A DNA stretch of 64,000 nucleotides from Phenylobacterium sp. GTDB lineage: Bacteria > Pseudomonadota > Alphaproteobacteria > Caulobacterales > Caulobacteraceae. Under the pieces are notes generated by a model. The model was not told the origin of the DNA. It worked only from the letters and a program-made list of their open reading frames with translations, and did not search any database. The stretch is from contig NZ_JACESE010000001.1 in assembly GCF_013911965.1 (NCBI RefSeq), forward strand, positions 289,382 to 353,381. Reading direction: 5' to 3'. The translations under genes were made by a program, and so were the position numbers. This document shows positions 553-5,067 of the stretch, in pieces (the first letter of the stretch is position 1; the number at the start of each line of letters is the position of its first letter).

Positions 553-1524
553 TCACGCATCGTCGCCTCCCAGCAGGTCGGTCTCGACCTCTTCGACCGC
601 CTTGGGCGCCACGCGCGCCTGATAGGCGCCGTACTCCGGCGCATCCGTCGGGATCACCGCCCAGCCCTTGGGCAGGGAAAGCCCCGCTAGCCGGTCCAGG
701 ACCGCTCGGCGCTGACTGGGCGTGGCGACCTTCCAGAGCTTCTCGAACTCGCCGGGGATGTCGCGCGCCTTGGCCTTGGCGGCCGGCGGCGGCTTCCCAG
801 CCGCGATCGCCACCGCCGCCGAGACGTTCTTCGTCTGGCCGGCCAGCAGCGGCTCCAGCGCCGCGGCCTGTAGGGCCGGATCGCCGAGGCCGGCGAGGCC
901 CCAGAGAACCCCCTCAGCCTTCGCAATCCAGGTCCCGTGTATGCGGGCGCGAAGCTCGGGGGAGAGGCCATTAATGGTCGCCCAGGCGCGCTTCACCGTG
1001 GACTCTGACAGGCCGACCTCGCCCGCCGTATCGACGGCGAAGCCCATGGTCTGGGGCGCCCCGCCCGTAAATTGGGTAATGTTTACCTCTTTTTTCGGGC
1101 GGCCCCGTTTGCGCTGGAGGGTCCCTTCCTCAACGCTGATCCGGTCCGGAAACCGGCGGCTCCAAACGGCGAACCGCGCCTCGAGCATCTCCGCCCGCTC
1201 GAGCGGCGTGAGGCCGCGACGGACCAGGTTCTCGTCGATCTCGATCTGACGCGCTTCGTCGTCGCTCAGCGGCCGGATCGTCGCTGGGATGGTGGCCCGG
1301 CCCAGGCCGCGCATGGCGGCCAGGCGGTGGGCGCCGGCGACCAGCTCGTACCGCTGCTCGCCCTCCTCGCCTGCGATGGGGCGGACCAGAATGGATCCGA
1401 AGAACACCGTCTCCTGGATGGCGACCTGCAGGTTCTGGACGGCGGCGGGATCGACCGGGCGAAGCCGCGGGCCGACGCTGATCATCGAAATCGGCAGGTC
1501 AACAGGCGCTGCGGAGGCCATCAG
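553..1524 (-). CDS. ParB N-terminal-domain protein
   Basis: A 323-aa protein with a ParB/Spo0J-type N-terminal domain. The segments GAHRLAA (the GERRxxA-like box) and ENLVRRGLTPLERAE (the second ParB box) lie in the first 110 residues. A Lys/Arg patch RKRGRPKKE follows, then a possible helix-turn-helix around LSESTVKRAW. ParB-N proteins are CTPase or nuclease-like DNA-binding proteins of segregation systems, and many unlinked homologues occur on phages and plasmids. No ParA lies nearby. I chose the ATG at 1524 because it overlaps the TGA of the upstream gene (TGATG), giving tight coupling; a longer frame to 1569 is possible. It is the last gene of a three-gene leftward operon with a Rha-like gene and a small DNA-binding-like gene. 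A role in plasmid or phage regulation is inference. Confidence 0.8.
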   Translation of the reverse strand: MMASAAPVDLPISMISVGPRLRPVDPAAVQNLQVAIQETVFFGSILVRPIAGEEGEQRYELVAGAHRLAAMRGLGRATIPATIRPLSDDEARQIEIDENLVRRGLTPLERAEMLEARFAVWSRRFPDRISVEEGTLQRKRGRPKKEVNITQFTGGAPQTMGFAVDTAGEVGLSESTVKRAWATINGLSPELRARIHGTWIAKAEGVLWGLAGLGDPALQAAALEPLLAGQTKNVSAAVAIAAGKPPPAAKAKARDIPGEFEKLWKVATPSQRRAVLDRLAGLSLPKGWAVIPTDAPEYGAYQARVAPKAVEEVETDLLGGDDA

Positions 1525-2225
1525 AGACCGCCCCCCCGCGCGCGCTTCAACTCGTCCAGCCGAAGCCACCAGCGATGCAAGGTGCTGCGGCTTGGCGTCC
1601 TTGCGGGACCGAACCGCTCCCTCATCCCCGCCAGGACGTCATCGATCCGGCCTTGACGATGGGTCGCCAGAATGTGCTGCCGGACCTCCACATCCCCGAA
1701 GAGGGCTGGGCGTCGTCCGGGCCGAAGTTCCGCCCACACATCGGCGTGCGTCAGCGCCAGGGCGCGTGCGCCGTGATCGCCGTCGCGCAGCCGCTGCCCC
1801 AGCCCCTCCAGCGCATCGAGCCGTTCGGTGAGACGCGCGAGCTGGGCGGCGACGGGGTCGCCGGCCGCGATGGGCGTCACGTCGCCTCGGGGCGCCGCCT
1901 GAAGCTCCCCGCGACGCCAGGCCATGAAGACCTCGATCACCTGGCGGCGCACCTCGGCCGCCTCCGGCGTCCGGGCGAACATGCAGACCAGCAGGGCCTG
2001 CGCTTCGTTCAGGAGATATTCGGTAGTCGGGCGCCCGCCGGCCTTACCCGAGGTTTTCGCCACGGTGGCGAGAACCCCTAGGTCCGCGAGTTCGTCGGCG
2101 TTCCTGCGGATCAGGTTTCGAACATTGCTGACGCGCTCGAATCCGAGGCGCTCCCCCAATTCCAGGTCGCGCACCCGCGGCTCTGCGGCCATCACGTACA
2201 GGTCGGATATCGCCAGGGGGCGCAT
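1521..2225 (-). CDS. Rha/antirepressor-like phage regulatory protein with in-frame palindrome
   Basis: A 234-aa protein. Residues 1-105 resemble prophage Rha/antirepressor-type regulators: an N-terminal helical DNA-binding-like part (ELGERLGFERVSNVRNLIRR), a variable turn (residues 50-60, GVLATVAKTSG), the segment GGRPTTEYLLNEAQAL, and a helix ending near FMAWRRGEL. The C-terminal 100 residues contain a coiled-coil-like stretch (RLTERLDALEGLGQRL) and a possible second helix-turn-helix (SRSTLHRWWLRLDEL). Codons 51-58 are written by a near-perfect DNA palindrome at 2052-2076, of the same family as the intergenic palindromes at 3067-3425. The gene starts 2 nt after the stop of the upstream small gene and its TGA overlaps the ParB-like ATG. 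The function is inferred; the family resemblance is from memory. Confidence 0.7.
   Translation of the reverse strand: MRPLAISDLYVMAAEPRVRDLELGERLGFERVSNVRNLIRRNADELADLGVLATVAKTSGKAGGRPTTEYLLNEAQALLVCMFARTPEAAEVRRQVIEVFMAWRRGELQAAPRGDVTPIAAGDPVAAQLARLTERLDALEGLGQRLRDGDHGARALALTHADVWAELRPGRRPALFGDVEVRQHILATHRQGRIDDVLAGMRERFGPARTPSRSTLHRWWLRLDELKRARGGGL
2052..2076. repeat. in-gene copy of the CCAC-S-GTGG palindrome
   Basis: Arms GGTTTTCGCCAC and GTGGCGAGAACC flank a single central G, with one arm mismatch. On the coding (minus) strand the codons read V-L-A-T-V-A-K-T, with the T-V codons at the palindrome centre. The intergenic palindrome at 3322-3348 is nearly identical and on the plus strand would encode G-V-F-A-T-V-A-K-T. 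Confidence 0.85.
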
Positions 2226-2227
2226 GT

Positions 2228-2467
2228 CTAGCAGCCCCGCGCTTTTGGACGTTGGGTGGATGCGGTTTCCGCGCTAATTCCTGCATCGGAGATCAGCCGC
2301 TTACGCCACTCCTGGGCGCAGGGGCCATTTGTGCGGCCGCGAAGGACCTGGATCAGGTAGCTGGCGCTGACGCTGTTCTCCGCCGACCACGCCCTCAGAG
2401 AGGAACCTTGTCGAATGAAGCCGATGCGCACCTCGCGCAGCAGATCGGGGCCTGGGCTCGGGGTCAT
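2228..2467 (-). CDS. small DNA-binding-like protein, 79 aa
   Basis: First gene of the leftward operon, two bases ahead of the Rha-like start codon. Residues 10-55 (SLRAWSAENSVSASYLIQVL followed by RGRTNG) look like a small helix-turn-helix of phage Ner or Nlp type: a helix, a turn with S-A-S, and a recognition-like helix. The 20-residue tail is basic and unstructured. It diverges from the CI-like gene at 2547 across the operator region, as a Cro-like partner would. That role is inference from position; the family assignment is uncertain. Confidence 0.55.
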   Translation of the reverse strand: MTPSPGPDLLREVRIGFIRQGSSLRAWSAENSVSASYLIQVLRGRTNGPCAQEWRKRLISDAGISAETASTQRPKARGC

Positions 2468-2496
2468 GATTGTTAACGTCGCTCACGTGCAATGGA

Positions 2497-2540
2497 TGTT
2501 CACGCGTGAACACTCTAGCGACAAGCGTTCACGTGTAAAC
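2497..2540. promoter_or_regulatory. divergent operator region: perfect 16-bp palindrome plus degenerate copy
   Basis: TGTTCACGCGTGAACA at 2497-2512 is a perfect palindrome. A second copy, GTTCACGTGTAAAC at 2527-2540, differs from its core at two positions and ends 6 bp before the ATG of the CI-like gene. A weaker GCTCACGTGCAA lies at 2481-2492. All three sit in the 79-bp gap between the divergent genes. Spaced similar palindromes between divergent repressor-type genes are typical of a CI/Cro-like switch. Which protein binds is inference. Confidence 0.7.
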
Positions 2541-2546
2541 AATTAA

Positions 2547-3035
2547 ATGGCTGTGGCGGACGACATCGAGGCGTTGCGGGTCGCGCTGAACGCAAAGAAC
2601 GACTCCGAGCTAGCTCGTCAGTTGGGCGTAAATCGCTCCGCTATTTCGCAGTGGCGCGACCGCGGCGCAGTGCCGAATAAGTATTTGCAGCTATTGGTTA
2701 GCCCAGCAGCCGCCGATTACGGGCGCGCGCTCGACGCCGCCCTGCGACTGCACATATTCGGTCGCGTCGAGGCGGCATATTGGTTGCGCGCCGCCCTCGC
2801 AGTCTTTCCCTTCGATGAGATGAAAGAGGCGAACGTTGACGCCGTCTTCCTCGACAATGTTGAGCAGGCAATGATGCAGCTTATGGGGCTCGCAATCACG
2901 GCCACGAACGTCGGCCTTAAGCAGGAACTTTGCCGCGACGCGGCTGACTGCGATCGGGTGATCCAGATCCTCAAGACGGACTTCGCCGATGAGATCGAGC
3001 GGATCGCCAGCCTCTTGGTGAGCGGTGGCGGCTAG
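2547..3035 (+). CDS. phage CI-like repressor, N-terminal HTH
   Basis: A 162-aa protein. Residues 5-50 form a helix-turn-helix of the phage CI/Bacteriophage-CI-repressor type (NDSELARQLGVNRSAISQW then RDRGAVPNKYLQLL). The remainder is helical and lacks a recognisable LexA/CI peptidase part, so self-cleavage on DNA damage is not supported. There is no clear Shine-Dalgarno before the ATG; the operator copy at 2527-2540 occupies that position, so expression may be leaderless or from a very short leader and directly autoregulated. It diverges from the ParB/Rha operon and is the likely repressor of it (inference). Confidence 0.75.
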   Translation: MAVADDIEALRVALNAKNDSELARQLGVNRSAISQWRDRGAVPNKYLQLLVSPAAADYGRALDAALRLHIFGRVEAAYWLRAALAVFPFDEMKEANVDAVFLDNVEQAMMQLMGLAITATNVGLKQELCRDAADCDRVIQILKTDFADEIERIASLLVSGGG

Positions 3036-3066
3036 GTCGAGCGCCGGAATGCAGGCGTGCGCCATA

Positions 3067-3425
3067 GGGGGTTTGCCGCACGGTGCGGCAAACCCCCAGT
3101 CGACGTCTCCCCGATCGGCCGCATCCTGGGCTCCCTGACCCTCCGCCGCGCGTCATAGGTTTGCCCCACCGTGGGGCAAACCCCCAGCGGATCATCGCTT
3201 CAGATTGAAGCGATGATCGGATTGGCGCCGCAGATCGCGGGGCCGATGCAGACGTGCCCCACCATAGGGCGCGCCACGGTGGCGCACGTCGCCCTGGCGA
3301 CCCAGTACGGCCACGCTGAAGGGGTTTTCGCCACGGTGGCGAAAACCCAGCGGATCATCGCCCCACGGTGGGGCGATGATCGCCAGATCCAGGATCATCG
3401 TTCCACCGTGGAACGATGATCCTGG
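3067..3425. repeat. cluster of seven perfect palindromes, six with a CCAC-S-GTGG core
   Basis: The palindromes are: P1 3067-3097 (15-nt arms, GGGGGTTTGCCGCAC); P2 3158-3182 (12-nt arms, GGTTTGCCCCAC); P3 3190-3218 (13-nt arms, GATCATCGCTTCA); P4 3271-3285 (7-nt arms, GCGCCAC); P5 3322-3348 (13-nt arms, GGGTTTTCGCCAC); P6 3353-3381 (14-nt arms, GATCATCGCCCCAC); P7 3389-3425 (18-nt arms, ending CGTTCCAC). All arms are perfect. P1, P2 and P4-P7 have a single-base centre and P3 a 3-nt centre. P2-P3 and P5-P6 are joined by nearly the same CCCAGCG linker. Arms fall into GTTTGCC, GTTTTCGCC and GATCATCG classes. No coding region is apparent here. Confidence 0.9.
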
Positions 3426-3448
3426 CCAGACCGGCGGCCCAGACCGCC

Positions 3449-3583
3449 TTCCCAGTTCGAGTTCGACTTCGGCCCGGCCAGATCGGCCCGACCGATTCTT
3501 ATCCATTTGTCTTTCTTAGCGTTTTCGGAACTGGGAACGCCCGGCGAAACTGGGAAGGACATTTCCCAGTTCGTTTCCCAGAT
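3449..3583. repeat. TTCCCAGTT repeats, direct and inverted
   Basis: TTCCCAGTT occurs at 3449-3457 and 3563-3571 on the plus strand and as AACTGGGAA at 3529-3537 and 3548-3556. A degenerate TTCCCAGAT lies at 3575-3583. The 3548-3556 and 3563-3571 copies form an inverted repeat with a 6-nt spacer. Clustered 9-mers in a gene-free, phage/plasmid-like stretch could be protein-binding iterons. No initiator gene is adjacent. Confidence 0.7.
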
Positions 3584-3945
3584 CCGGCGAGGCCTGGCCC
3601 GCGCTGAGGCCTCTGTTCACCCACGCCTCGAACACCCTTCGAGCGACCTTCAAACCCGTTCCGACCTTGATTCATAAGGGCCGGCGGCCCAACGGCCGCG
3701 CCGCCCTCGAAGGCCCCTACGCGCCGCCTCGAATGTCTAACCGCCACTCCGGTTTTGACTGTCTAAATCGCGCCAGATCGCCCGATCCGCCCGATATCCC
3801 TGGACACAGCCCTGCCGGCCTCCAGCCCCGCCCGACGCGCCCCCGAGCCTTGATTCACAAGGCCCCGTCCCATGATGTTCAGGGTCATTCCAGGTCATCC
3901 CAGCCACTCCAGGACCATGTGTCTGCCTACAGGGTCTGCGGCCCC
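3584..3945. other. gene-free stretch with a 15-bp repeat pair
   Basis: I see no credible gene here; the open frames lack coding-like composition. CCTTGATTCATAAGG at 3665-3679 and CCTTGATTCACAAGG at 3848-3862 differ at one position, and the second is itself an imperfect inverted repeat (CCTTG...CAAGG). The second copy lies about 80 bp from the 3' end of the flavoprotein gene, a position where an element boundary could fall. No integrase is visible. Confidence 0.5.
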
Positions 3946-5067
3946 TCAGGCCTCCGCCAGACCCAACCGCCCCGCCACCTCCTCCCCGATCGCCAGGGAC
4001 GAGGTGAGGCCCGGGCTTTCGATGCCGAAGAGGGCGACGAGCCCCTGCAGGCCATGCGCCTCCGGGCCGTCGATGCGGAAGTCGGGATGCGGCTCGCCCG
4101 GGCCGTGCAGCTTGGGCCGGATGCCGGCATAGTCGGGGGAGAGGGAGTCGTCGGGCAGGGCCGGCCAGAACTTGCGCACATAGGCGTAGAAGCCCGCCGC
4201 CGCGTCGGGATCGACGCTGTAGTCCAGTTCGTCGACGAAGATCAGGTCGGGCCCGAACACGGCCTGGCCGCCCAGGTCGCGCCGATAGTGGGTGCCGAGC
4301 GCGCCGGGGATGGGCGGCGGATAGATCAGGCGGGCGAAGGGCGCCTTGCCCTGCAGGCGGAAATAGCGGCCCTTGCCGTAGTGGCCTTCGGGGATTTCCT
4401 CCCGCGGGAAGCCCTCGATCGCGCCGGCCACGGCCTGGGCCGAGAGGCCGGGCGCGGTGACCAGCAGGCGCGCGCTGAGGCTCGTCGGCTCCGCCCCGCC
4501 GGCCCGAATGCGCCAGCCGCCGCCCGGCAGCGGCTCGGCGCCTTCGAAAGGGGTGGAGAGCACGACGGCCCCGCCGCCGGCCTCGATCTCGCCCTGCAAG
4601 GCCAGCATGTAGCCGTGGCTGTCGAAGACCCCGCTCTGCGGCGAGATCAGGGCGGCGTCACAGGACAGCTCCGGCTCCAGGGCCAGCGCCTGGGCCTTGG
4701 AGAGCAGCTCCATGCCCTCCACGTCGTTGATGCGCGCCTGCTCCAGGATCGGCTCGAGCCGTGCGACCTCGTCGGCCCCGTTGGCCACCACCAGCTTGCC
4801 GCAGCGGTCGAAGGCGATGTTGCGGGCCTCCAGGAACGGATAGAGCATCCGCCGCCCCTGCACGCAGAGCCGCGCCTTCAGCGAGCCCGTCGGATAGTAG
4901 AGCCCGCCGTGGATCACCTCGGAATTGCGCGAGGAGACGCCCTGGCCGATGGCCACATCCTGCTCGAGCACCACGACGGTGAGGCCCCGCCGGGTCAGCG
5001 CATATCCGCAGGCGAGCCCCACGGCGCCCGCGCCCACCACCAGGGCGTCGAAATCGAAATCGGCCAT
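3946..5067 (-). CDS. FAD-dependent oxidoreductase, L-2-hydroxyglutarate oxidase-like
   Basis: A 373-aa protein of the DAO/L2HGDH flavoprotein family. The N-terminus carries a Rossmann FAD-binding motif (VVGAGAVGLACGYAL), followed by the family-typical SSRNSEVIHGGLYYP stretch that contacts flavin, and a C-terminal IESPGLTSSLAIGE segment that closes the FAD site. Family members oxidise L-2-hydroxyglutarate or related 2-hydroxy acids and pass electrons to the membrane quinone pool or to oxygen; the exact substrate cannot be read from sequence. ATG 5067 is preferred over an in-frame TTG six bases upstream. It stands alone, 38 bp from the next leftward gene, a TetR regulator, which may control it. 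Confidence 0.82.
   Translation of the reverse strand: MADFDFDALVVGAGAVGLACGYALTRRGLTVVVLEQDVAIGQGVSSRNSEVIHGGLYYPTGSLKARLCVQGRRMLYPFLEARNIAFDRCGKLVVANGADEVARLEPILEQARINDVEGMELLSKAQALALEPELSCDAALISPQSGVFDSHGYMLALQGEIEAGGGAVVLSTPFEGAEPLPGGGWRIRAGGAEPTSLSARLLVTAPGLSAQAVAGAIEGFPREEIPEGHYGKGRYFRLQGKAPFARLIYPPPIPGALGTHYRRDLGGQAVFGPDLIFVDELDYSVDPDAAAGFYAYVRKFWPALPDDSLSPDYAGIRPKLHGPGEPHPDFRIDGPEAHGLQGLVALFGIESPGLTSSLAIGEEVAGRLGLAEA

Follow-up and report, generated by a model that had tools for sequence, protein, structure and literature searches.

A row of palindromes at one end of a Mu-like prophage as predicted operators of Rha-family phage regulators, many with a proposed operator of their own inside the gene

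Seven palindromes arranged in a row near one end of a Mu-like prophage of Phenylobacterium sp. are probably operators of Rha-family phage winged-helix regulators, many of which would carry an operator of their own inside the gene. This assignment is drawn from sequence comparison. The window, i.e., the whole stretch of DNA analysed, comprises 64,000 nt (assembly GCF_013911965.1, contig NZ_JACESE010000001.1, positions 289,382-353,381, forward strand). According to the proposed mechanism, a Rha dimer would use the first part of its recognition helix to read the inner half-site of an odd palindrome, and many Rha genes would hold such a site within the codons of the DNA-binding domain, usually those of the wing, through which rha may regulate itself. 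Since the helix would read a site in its own gene, protein specificity and target site would travel together upon exchange of helix and wing.

The array spans positions 3067-3425 and consists of the following palindromes, to which no strand is assigned:

3067-3097, palindrome P1, arms of 15, core GCAC-G-GTGC, operator-like, inner half-site GCCGC
3158-3182, palindrome P2, arms of 12, inner half-site GCCCC
3190-3218, palindrome P3, arms of 13, centre GAT (CTTCA-GAT-TGAAG), inner half-site GCTTC
3271-3285, palindrome P4, arms of 7 (perfect pairs only 7), inner half-site GCGCC
3322-3348, palindrome P5, arms of 13, inner half-site TCGCC
3353-3381, palindrome P6, arms of 14, inner half-site GCCCC, with another outer arm, GATCATCG
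3389-3425, palindrome P7, arms of 18, inner half-site GTTCC

A previous sequence-only reading described seven perfect palindromes, six of them centred on CCAC-S-GTGG. All seven are present and far above chance expectation, but P3 has three unpaired central bases in place of a one-base centre, and the core CCAC-S-GTGG occupies the exact centre of five, not six, P1 and P3 being the ones that differ. The same reading correctly noted that the arms fall into exchangeable classes and that the order P2-P3 is repeated in P5-P6, with a linker that turned out to be nearly, not fully, the same (45 nt, 78%). In the entire 64-kb window, one-base-centre perfect palindromes with arms of at least 12 occur five times, all inside the array; 20 first-order Markov sequences of 64 kb and the same composition yielded four one-base-centre palindromes with arms of at least 10. 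The short sequence GCCACSGTGGC is by itself common enough in the genome (20 places), while the longer GTTTNNNCCACSGTGGNNNAAAC has two genome occurrences, both within the array, and is absent from 99 other genomes scanned. A scan with the outer-arm pattern of P6 and P7 returned nothing, and its looser form a single stretch, on the contig of a known locus (L046). The array DNA lies between a CI-type gene and the prophage end, and the ORF list shows no convincing gene there.

Two non-operator classes, already dismissed by the previous reading, were rejected here as well. The site scan for intrinsic terminators in 2100-3960 found three against 1.5 expected from shuffles, which is near chance; no array palindrome is followed by a T run, and one weak five-pair terminator-like site (3350-3366) touches the array. 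For REP elements, the dispersed genome copies are too few and the longer pattern is confined to the array.

The Mu-like prophage measures about 32.4 kb; one of its ends, the c-gene end, falls in the window and carries the array. The neighbouring features are:

553-1569, minus strand, ParB-like protein beside rha
1521-2225, minus strand, Rha-family regulator in the wide sense, with a predicted N-terminal winged helix; PHROG anti-repressor Ant
2228-2467, minus strand, small HTH-like protein (weak PHROG match)
2547-3035, plus strand, CI-type HTH protein, likely prophage repressor, with its stop 31 bp before the array start
3907-3931, minus strand, terminal inverted repeat of the c-gene end (TGTAG...GACAC.TGGT...GGAG), followed by GGGTC at 3932-3936

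What marks the element as Mu-like are its genes of Mu type, the inverted repeats at its termini and the 5-bp duplication of the target (GGGTC). The two termini are TGTAGCGCGACACTTGGTTTCGGAG at window coordinate -28519 and, in inverted form, TGTAGGCAGACACATGGTCCTGGAG, which ends at 3931; the direct repeat GGGTC flanks both. In the closest relatives within the genus, three in number, the distance between the two prophage flanks is about 130, 170 and 213 bp. Among Mu-type profiles, GemA and Phage_tail_S scored above their cut-offs and Mu F-like below its cut-off. No transposase was recognised among the subset of prophage genes scanned; the MuA transposase test with PF09299 gave no match in the genome, as it gave none in the control. 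All three phage-integrase matches in the genome are on other contigs. Possible helper phages with the same ends, matched once each in G022 and G078 among 390 family genomes, were taken as chance because the stretches there are without homology to the prophage. With the ParB-like protein as the query, related prophages were found in 10 of 390 genomes, its own included; six of the related-prophage stretches found this way contain no array. In one of them (L401), a Rha gene also stands beside parB, with 10 of 12 wing pairs.

The assignment of the 1521-2225 protein is to the Rha family in the wide sense only, because its score with PF09669 (Phage_pRha; 24.1 bits, E 5.6e-5) is under the curated cut-off of 29.9. 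In our first seed alignment (A1), built from palindrome-found loci and the window, 8 of 11 members match PF09669 at E <=0.01. AlphaFold2 models of the window protein and of the L017 domain (mean pLDDT 82.8 and 86.1, respectively) show an order of helices and strands that fits a helix-turn-helix followed by a wing. Two strands come after the helix-turn-helix. In the L017 domain, the palindrome encodes the first wing strand, and the second helix (32-41) has the residues designated h4, h5 and h6 (33, 34 and 37) in its opening part; the window protein shows a similar arrangement, its helix covering 34-41. A sequence-profile search for solved structural relatives of the domain returned none below E 0.2. 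In the rha of the prophage, the sole Rha detected in the genome, the corresponding codons are:

2103-2132, minus strand, recognition-helix region, residues 32-41 of Rha, with h4 S33, h5 N34 and h6 N37
2052-2076, minus strand, wing-codon palindrome with one mismatched pair, peptide VLATVAKT

The link between such palindromes and Rha comes from viral contigs. The pattern GTTTNNNCCACSGTGGNNNAAAC was found in 16 stretches, 11 of them inside Rha-type genes (two being the same sequence), in line with the tie to Rha/antirepressor-like genes that had been suggested. There the sites code for V-C-A-T-V-A-Q-T or a variant of it, and a conserved GGRPxxEYxLNExQAL-like stretch comes directly afterwards. This accounts for the x-T-V-x pattern that the previous reading had seen in the translated array cores, since such sequences are the codons of Rha wings.

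A second sample was assembled by means of peptide patterns lying outside the palindrome (80 loci, the best 80 of 99). After 14 near-duplicates were left out, the remaining 66 loci (675 kb) contained 20 one-base-centre perfect palindromes with arms of at least 9 in rha ORFs, one of them outside the wing, and 6 elsewhere. The palindromes of Rha genes occur in all three reading frames and in many sequences. In the full set, at least 10 of 12 pairs were complementary in 95 of 131 wing windows (131 of the 144 domains were used for this count) compared to 5 of 591 control windows placed farther downstream in these ORFs; for loci found without the palindrome pattern, the numbers were 87 of 121 and 4 of 556. 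Some Rha genes are thus without a clear wing site, as 36 of the 131 windows have fewer than 10 of 12 pairs. Among 37 distinct motif-anchored 31-mers, 382 of 444 arm pairs were complementary, with a mean of 291 and a maximum of 313 in 5000 shuffles. The distance-7 pair, which changes the amino acid on both sides (C-Q, F-K, S-E), was complementary in 37 of 37 against 18.7 expected. Judged from these comparisons, the symmetry of the Rha-wing palindrome is kept at the level of DNA. Codon shuffling gave a weaker result (11 of 65 genes at p <=0.01), in part because the peptide encoded by the wing itself tracks the palindrome.

The position of the site is not fixed: in L158, L163, L164 and L223, the best palindrome lies just behind the recognition-helix codons and not in the wing. 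In five Rha-type proteins that are more remote, the wing palindromes surround TTTGAAA and form 9 to 11 of 12 pairs; the operator-in-gene principle may therefore predate the CCACSGTGG core. In close relatives (an Azospirillum-type clade, L014/L041 and L050/L064), helix and wing are strongly divergent and the post-wing part is nearly identical, a pattern compatible with a specificity unit that is exchanged or diversifies rapidly. Two loci carry two different tandem palindromes within one Rha wing (L098 at 1737 and 1782, L124 at 6170 and 6212). In L009 (3704-4282), a piece of Rha (model positions 28-64) together with a palindrome forms the C-terminal end of another ORF.

The recognition helix and the half-site also correspond to each other. 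The code residues were h4, h5 and h6 in the motif h4-h5-I-R-h6, and the inner half-site was taken as the five bases d7-d3 of the best palindrome within the 33 codons preceding the Y-x-L-N-type motif, whereby the helix was not consulted. From 144 distinct domains, 124 had a parsable helix and wing and 110 of these at least 9 of 12 pairs. Within these 110, similarity of the helix correlated with similarity of the half-site (r 0.573; partial r 0.571), a value reached in none of 2000 permutations, while the correlation with background identity was r 0.061, and the outer arms were independent of the helix (r -0.02). The recurrent pairings were RDIRK with GCGCC, RKIR[DE] with GCCCC, RDIRQ with GCGG[CT], RDIRP with GCCGC and HKIR with CCGCC; RNIRK went with GCTCC in two of three non-redundant cases.

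Wings that are read in different frames were compared as well. When pairs of such domains had identical helix residues, all five bases were common in 118 of 125; when none of the three residues was shared, this was so in 0 of 959. In the set below 80% identity (96 domains, 85 with at least 9 pairs), the numbers were 66 of 70 and 0 of 610. The main set mixes loci from peptide patterns with loci from the palindrome pattern itself and for this reason favours palindromes; the tests were therefore repeated without the palindrome-found loci, and the result stands (60 of 64 and 0 of 528). One of the two peptide patterns in one collection round touches the helix. Because the code holds when the wing is read in another frame, the match of the Rha recognition helix appears to be to DNA rather than to peptide. 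Joint inheritance of the neighbouring helix and wing is a rival explanation for the code, which the cross-frame result weakens but does not abolish.

The code also had predictive value. A leave-one-out test was applied to the 54 of the 85 domains below 80% identity whose helix type was seen at least twice, and the half-site was predicted correctly from the three helix residues in 45 of 54, again 45 of 54 without the palindrome-found loci. The nine failures all concerned helix types seen only two or three times. Prediction from the nearest relative was right in 0 of 54, a weak yardstick, as the relative must have another helix. Moreover, L158, L163 and L223, with the palindrome behind the helix, still obey the code. 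Among domains added later (11 of 18 records used), all six with a helix type seen before fit it, about three of which are new, because L319, L320 and L317 resemble loci already used. One discrepancy concerns the prophage itself: its own helix (S-N-N) disagrees with the half-site of its own wing, and the helix closest to it, TNIRN, is paired with GCTTC, the half-site of P3 rather than of P5.

Six of the seven array half-sites are among the 35 known from Rha wings, at a composition-weighted chance of 0.074 per site; as a control, the prophage and window contain 30 further quasi-palindromes, of which 3 have a half-site from the Rha set. The half-site of P1 (GCCGC) occurs in eight Rha wings, with the helix RDIRP in five and RGIRD, RAIRD and RNIRD in one each. 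That of P2 (GCCCC) is found in 15 wings, every one with a helix RK[IV]R[DE], and P2 shares 11 of 12 half-site bases with the wings of L208 and L190. P3 (GCTTC) corresponds to two wings with the helix TNIRN, and P4 (GCGCC) to 28 wings, 25 of them with RD[IV]RK; the right arm of P4 equals the L131 Rha wing over 12 bases. P5 (TCGCC) has three wings and a 12-base identity to that of L006, partly by selection, because the scan that retrieved L006 used a pattern derived from P2 and P5. For P7 (GTTCC), no Rha wing with this half-site was found. The array contains six different inner half-sites. The wing of the prophage's own Rha resembles P5 (11 of 12 half-site bases), and since this sole detected Rha has a wing like P5 and a helix like the partner of P3, most of the array seems to match Rha helix types absent from this genome. 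Extra sites that look foreign to the local Rha were also noticed by eye, in small number, in L135, L011, L062 and, for one of two sites, in L124.

Perfect symmetry combined with changing arms had been held to speak against operators. The data instead agree with a set of operators differing in specificity, since a separate half-site belongs to each Rha helix type; the sites are two-fold symmetric and their sequence depends on the recognition helix of the regulator. The array, located between the c-type gene and the prophage terminus, would then be a row of candidate operators, which might let the prophage respond to, or titrate, foreign Rha proteins, the weakest step of the scheme. In the places searched (the triple-core scan of viral contigs and the related-prophage stretches), no second multi-specificity array was found, so that recurrence offers no yardstick for its function.

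The notion of a bank of alternative cassettes, put forward in the previous reading, would have the array store wing segments to be copied into rha by recombination. The array arms do match wings of several Rha types, single wings of L098 and L124 contain tandem palindromes, and close relatives are helix/wing mosaics. The masked array, however, gave only three matches to the 144 Rha reading frames, the best with E 0.17 over 14 nt, i.e., no convincing flanking homology, and the recognition helix, which changes along with the wing, is not seen in the array, which makes such a bank quite improbable. Mobile palindromic elements resembling those of Rickettsia, inserted in frame in genes and also between genes, would explain copies within an unrelated gene (L010) and copies where no Rha was detected (L120, L143, L127 and L108). 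As an account of some single copies, including the tandems of L098 and L124 and those of the four genomes without detected Rha, mobility may apply; as the main reading it has hardly any likelihood, since what the copies have in common does not extend beyond a palindrome of about 25-37 bp, their principal location is a single site in a single gene family, where three reading frames are used, and no partner enzyme was seen. In the draft bacterial genomes without detected Rha, the palindromes at L120:5670-5700, L127:691-713 and L108:4453-4475 are perfect and that at L143:896-918 has one pair broken.

A mutation bias, in which template switching between arms makes and keeps functionless perfect palindromes, would yield perfect symmetry with changing arms as well as tandem or lone copies, but it leaves unexplained why the half-site follows the recognition helix, across reading frames too, and why the palindrome is located in the DNA-binding domain; we give it very little weight. 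The sites might also be operators of another protein, be it an Arc/Mnt-type ribbon-helix-helix repressor, the CI-type HTH protein or the ParB-like protein. The P22 Mnt operator has the same core, the ParB-like gene adjoins rha, and by eye the triple ACCACSGTGGT occurs in many phage contigs, often beside TTGAC-like boxes, and in L327:10603-10662 between two divergent Arc-like genes, a likely operator region. Against this, a single protein would not need so many half-sites, and the half-sites follow the Rha helix, so that we consider it quite unlikely. The CI-type protein was rejected as the reader of the array, its divergent region carrying other palindromes (by eye): between the two divergent HTH genes, at 2470-2545, there are palindromes of the GTTCACGYGTGAAC type, likely operators of the prophage switch. 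Operators of several Rha specificities remain the preferred reading of the array.

Palindromes of related form were met in other contexts. The triple-core scan of viral contigs, many of which are fragments, returned 61 stretches, mostly triplets near promoter-like boxes and coding repeats (by eye). Three or more GCGCCACSGTGGCGC-type sites each occur in L344:3646-3697, L345:2792-2865 and L363:5212-5285, fragments in which no Rha was found; in L345 and L363, the clusters lie inside an ORF like a replication protein (by eye). Several TTGTACCACGGTGGTACAA-type palindromes are present in Bifidobacterium gallicum, in L106 (5593 and 5646) and L141 (1028), loci where Rha was undetected. The ParB-like genes of the related prophages L400-L405 have an odd palindrome of their own at about one place (e.g., L400:5840, L403:6611 and L405:6708), three of them forming all 12 of 12 pairs and the other three 9-10 of 12; in five, the site is at the linker RPxxxxKxxxF, and in L405 at a similar position. 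The parB of the window has no such palindrome (best 8 of 12 pairs).

A wider picture, possible though somewhat doubtful, is that the wing DNA is an operator read by the adjoining helix, that this unit is swappable, that some elements, this prophage among them, gather many specificities in an array and thereby sense or soak up the regulators of other phages, and that related ParB-like genes may use the same device. If true, lock and key would lie in one short stretch, making immunity or regulatory specificity modular. A widespread family of phage regulators would gain a predicted operator and a readable helix-to-base code, from which it could be predicted which phages and satellites might regulate one another. 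It would also show a gene whose binding site is written in the codons of its binding domain, an unusual double use of DNA, and the embedded operator would explain the joint change of specificity and target. The role of multi-specificity arrays would become an experimental question.

In the accessible parts of two sources (PMC4936722, PMC8951638), Rha figures as a winged-helix regulatory protein of phages; a block of phage growth in hosts that lack integration host factor is connected with it, and a part in the lytic-lysogenic switch is suggested. The accessible parts of the open-access literature yielded no description of Rha DNA targets, and no report of a site inside rha was found in the open-access literature. 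The palindrome-carrying gene belongs to the same sequence family (PF09669, PHROG anti-repressor Ant) and has the predicted winged helix; as far as the available source text goes, members come from temperate phages and a satellite phage. Compared to what is known of Rha, the operator inside the gene and the helix-to-half-site code are new proposals. Competing mobile elements with a common DNA-binding domain and semi-palindromic sites are described, in the part of the source available, for the PLE origin iterons and the ICP1 nuclease Odn (PMC8263062). The likeness lies in the sharing of domain and sites between competitors; judged from the same portion of that source, the PLE sites belong to the origin and not, as proposed for Rha, to the gene encoding the binding protein.

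Rickettsia palindromic elements are likewise palindromic DNA inside protein-coding genes, but they are longer and spread over many gene families, and we know of no link between them and a DNA-binding code. The core CCACSGTGG of the array is common to the phage triple ACCACSGTGGT sites and to the operator of P22 Mnt, a ribbon-helix-helix protein; those sites stand near promoters and have one specificity. The KorB operator of RK2 is an odd palindrome with a central S as well; unlike the Rha sites, it is one fixed sequence that is not known to co-diversify or to lie inside the DNA-binding domain of its own gene. Intragenic operators are known from lacI and galE, where a repressor site is within the coding sequence, as proposed for rha. 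What would set Rha apart from these is that the site lies in the codons of the predicted reading domain, and that site and reader co-diversify.
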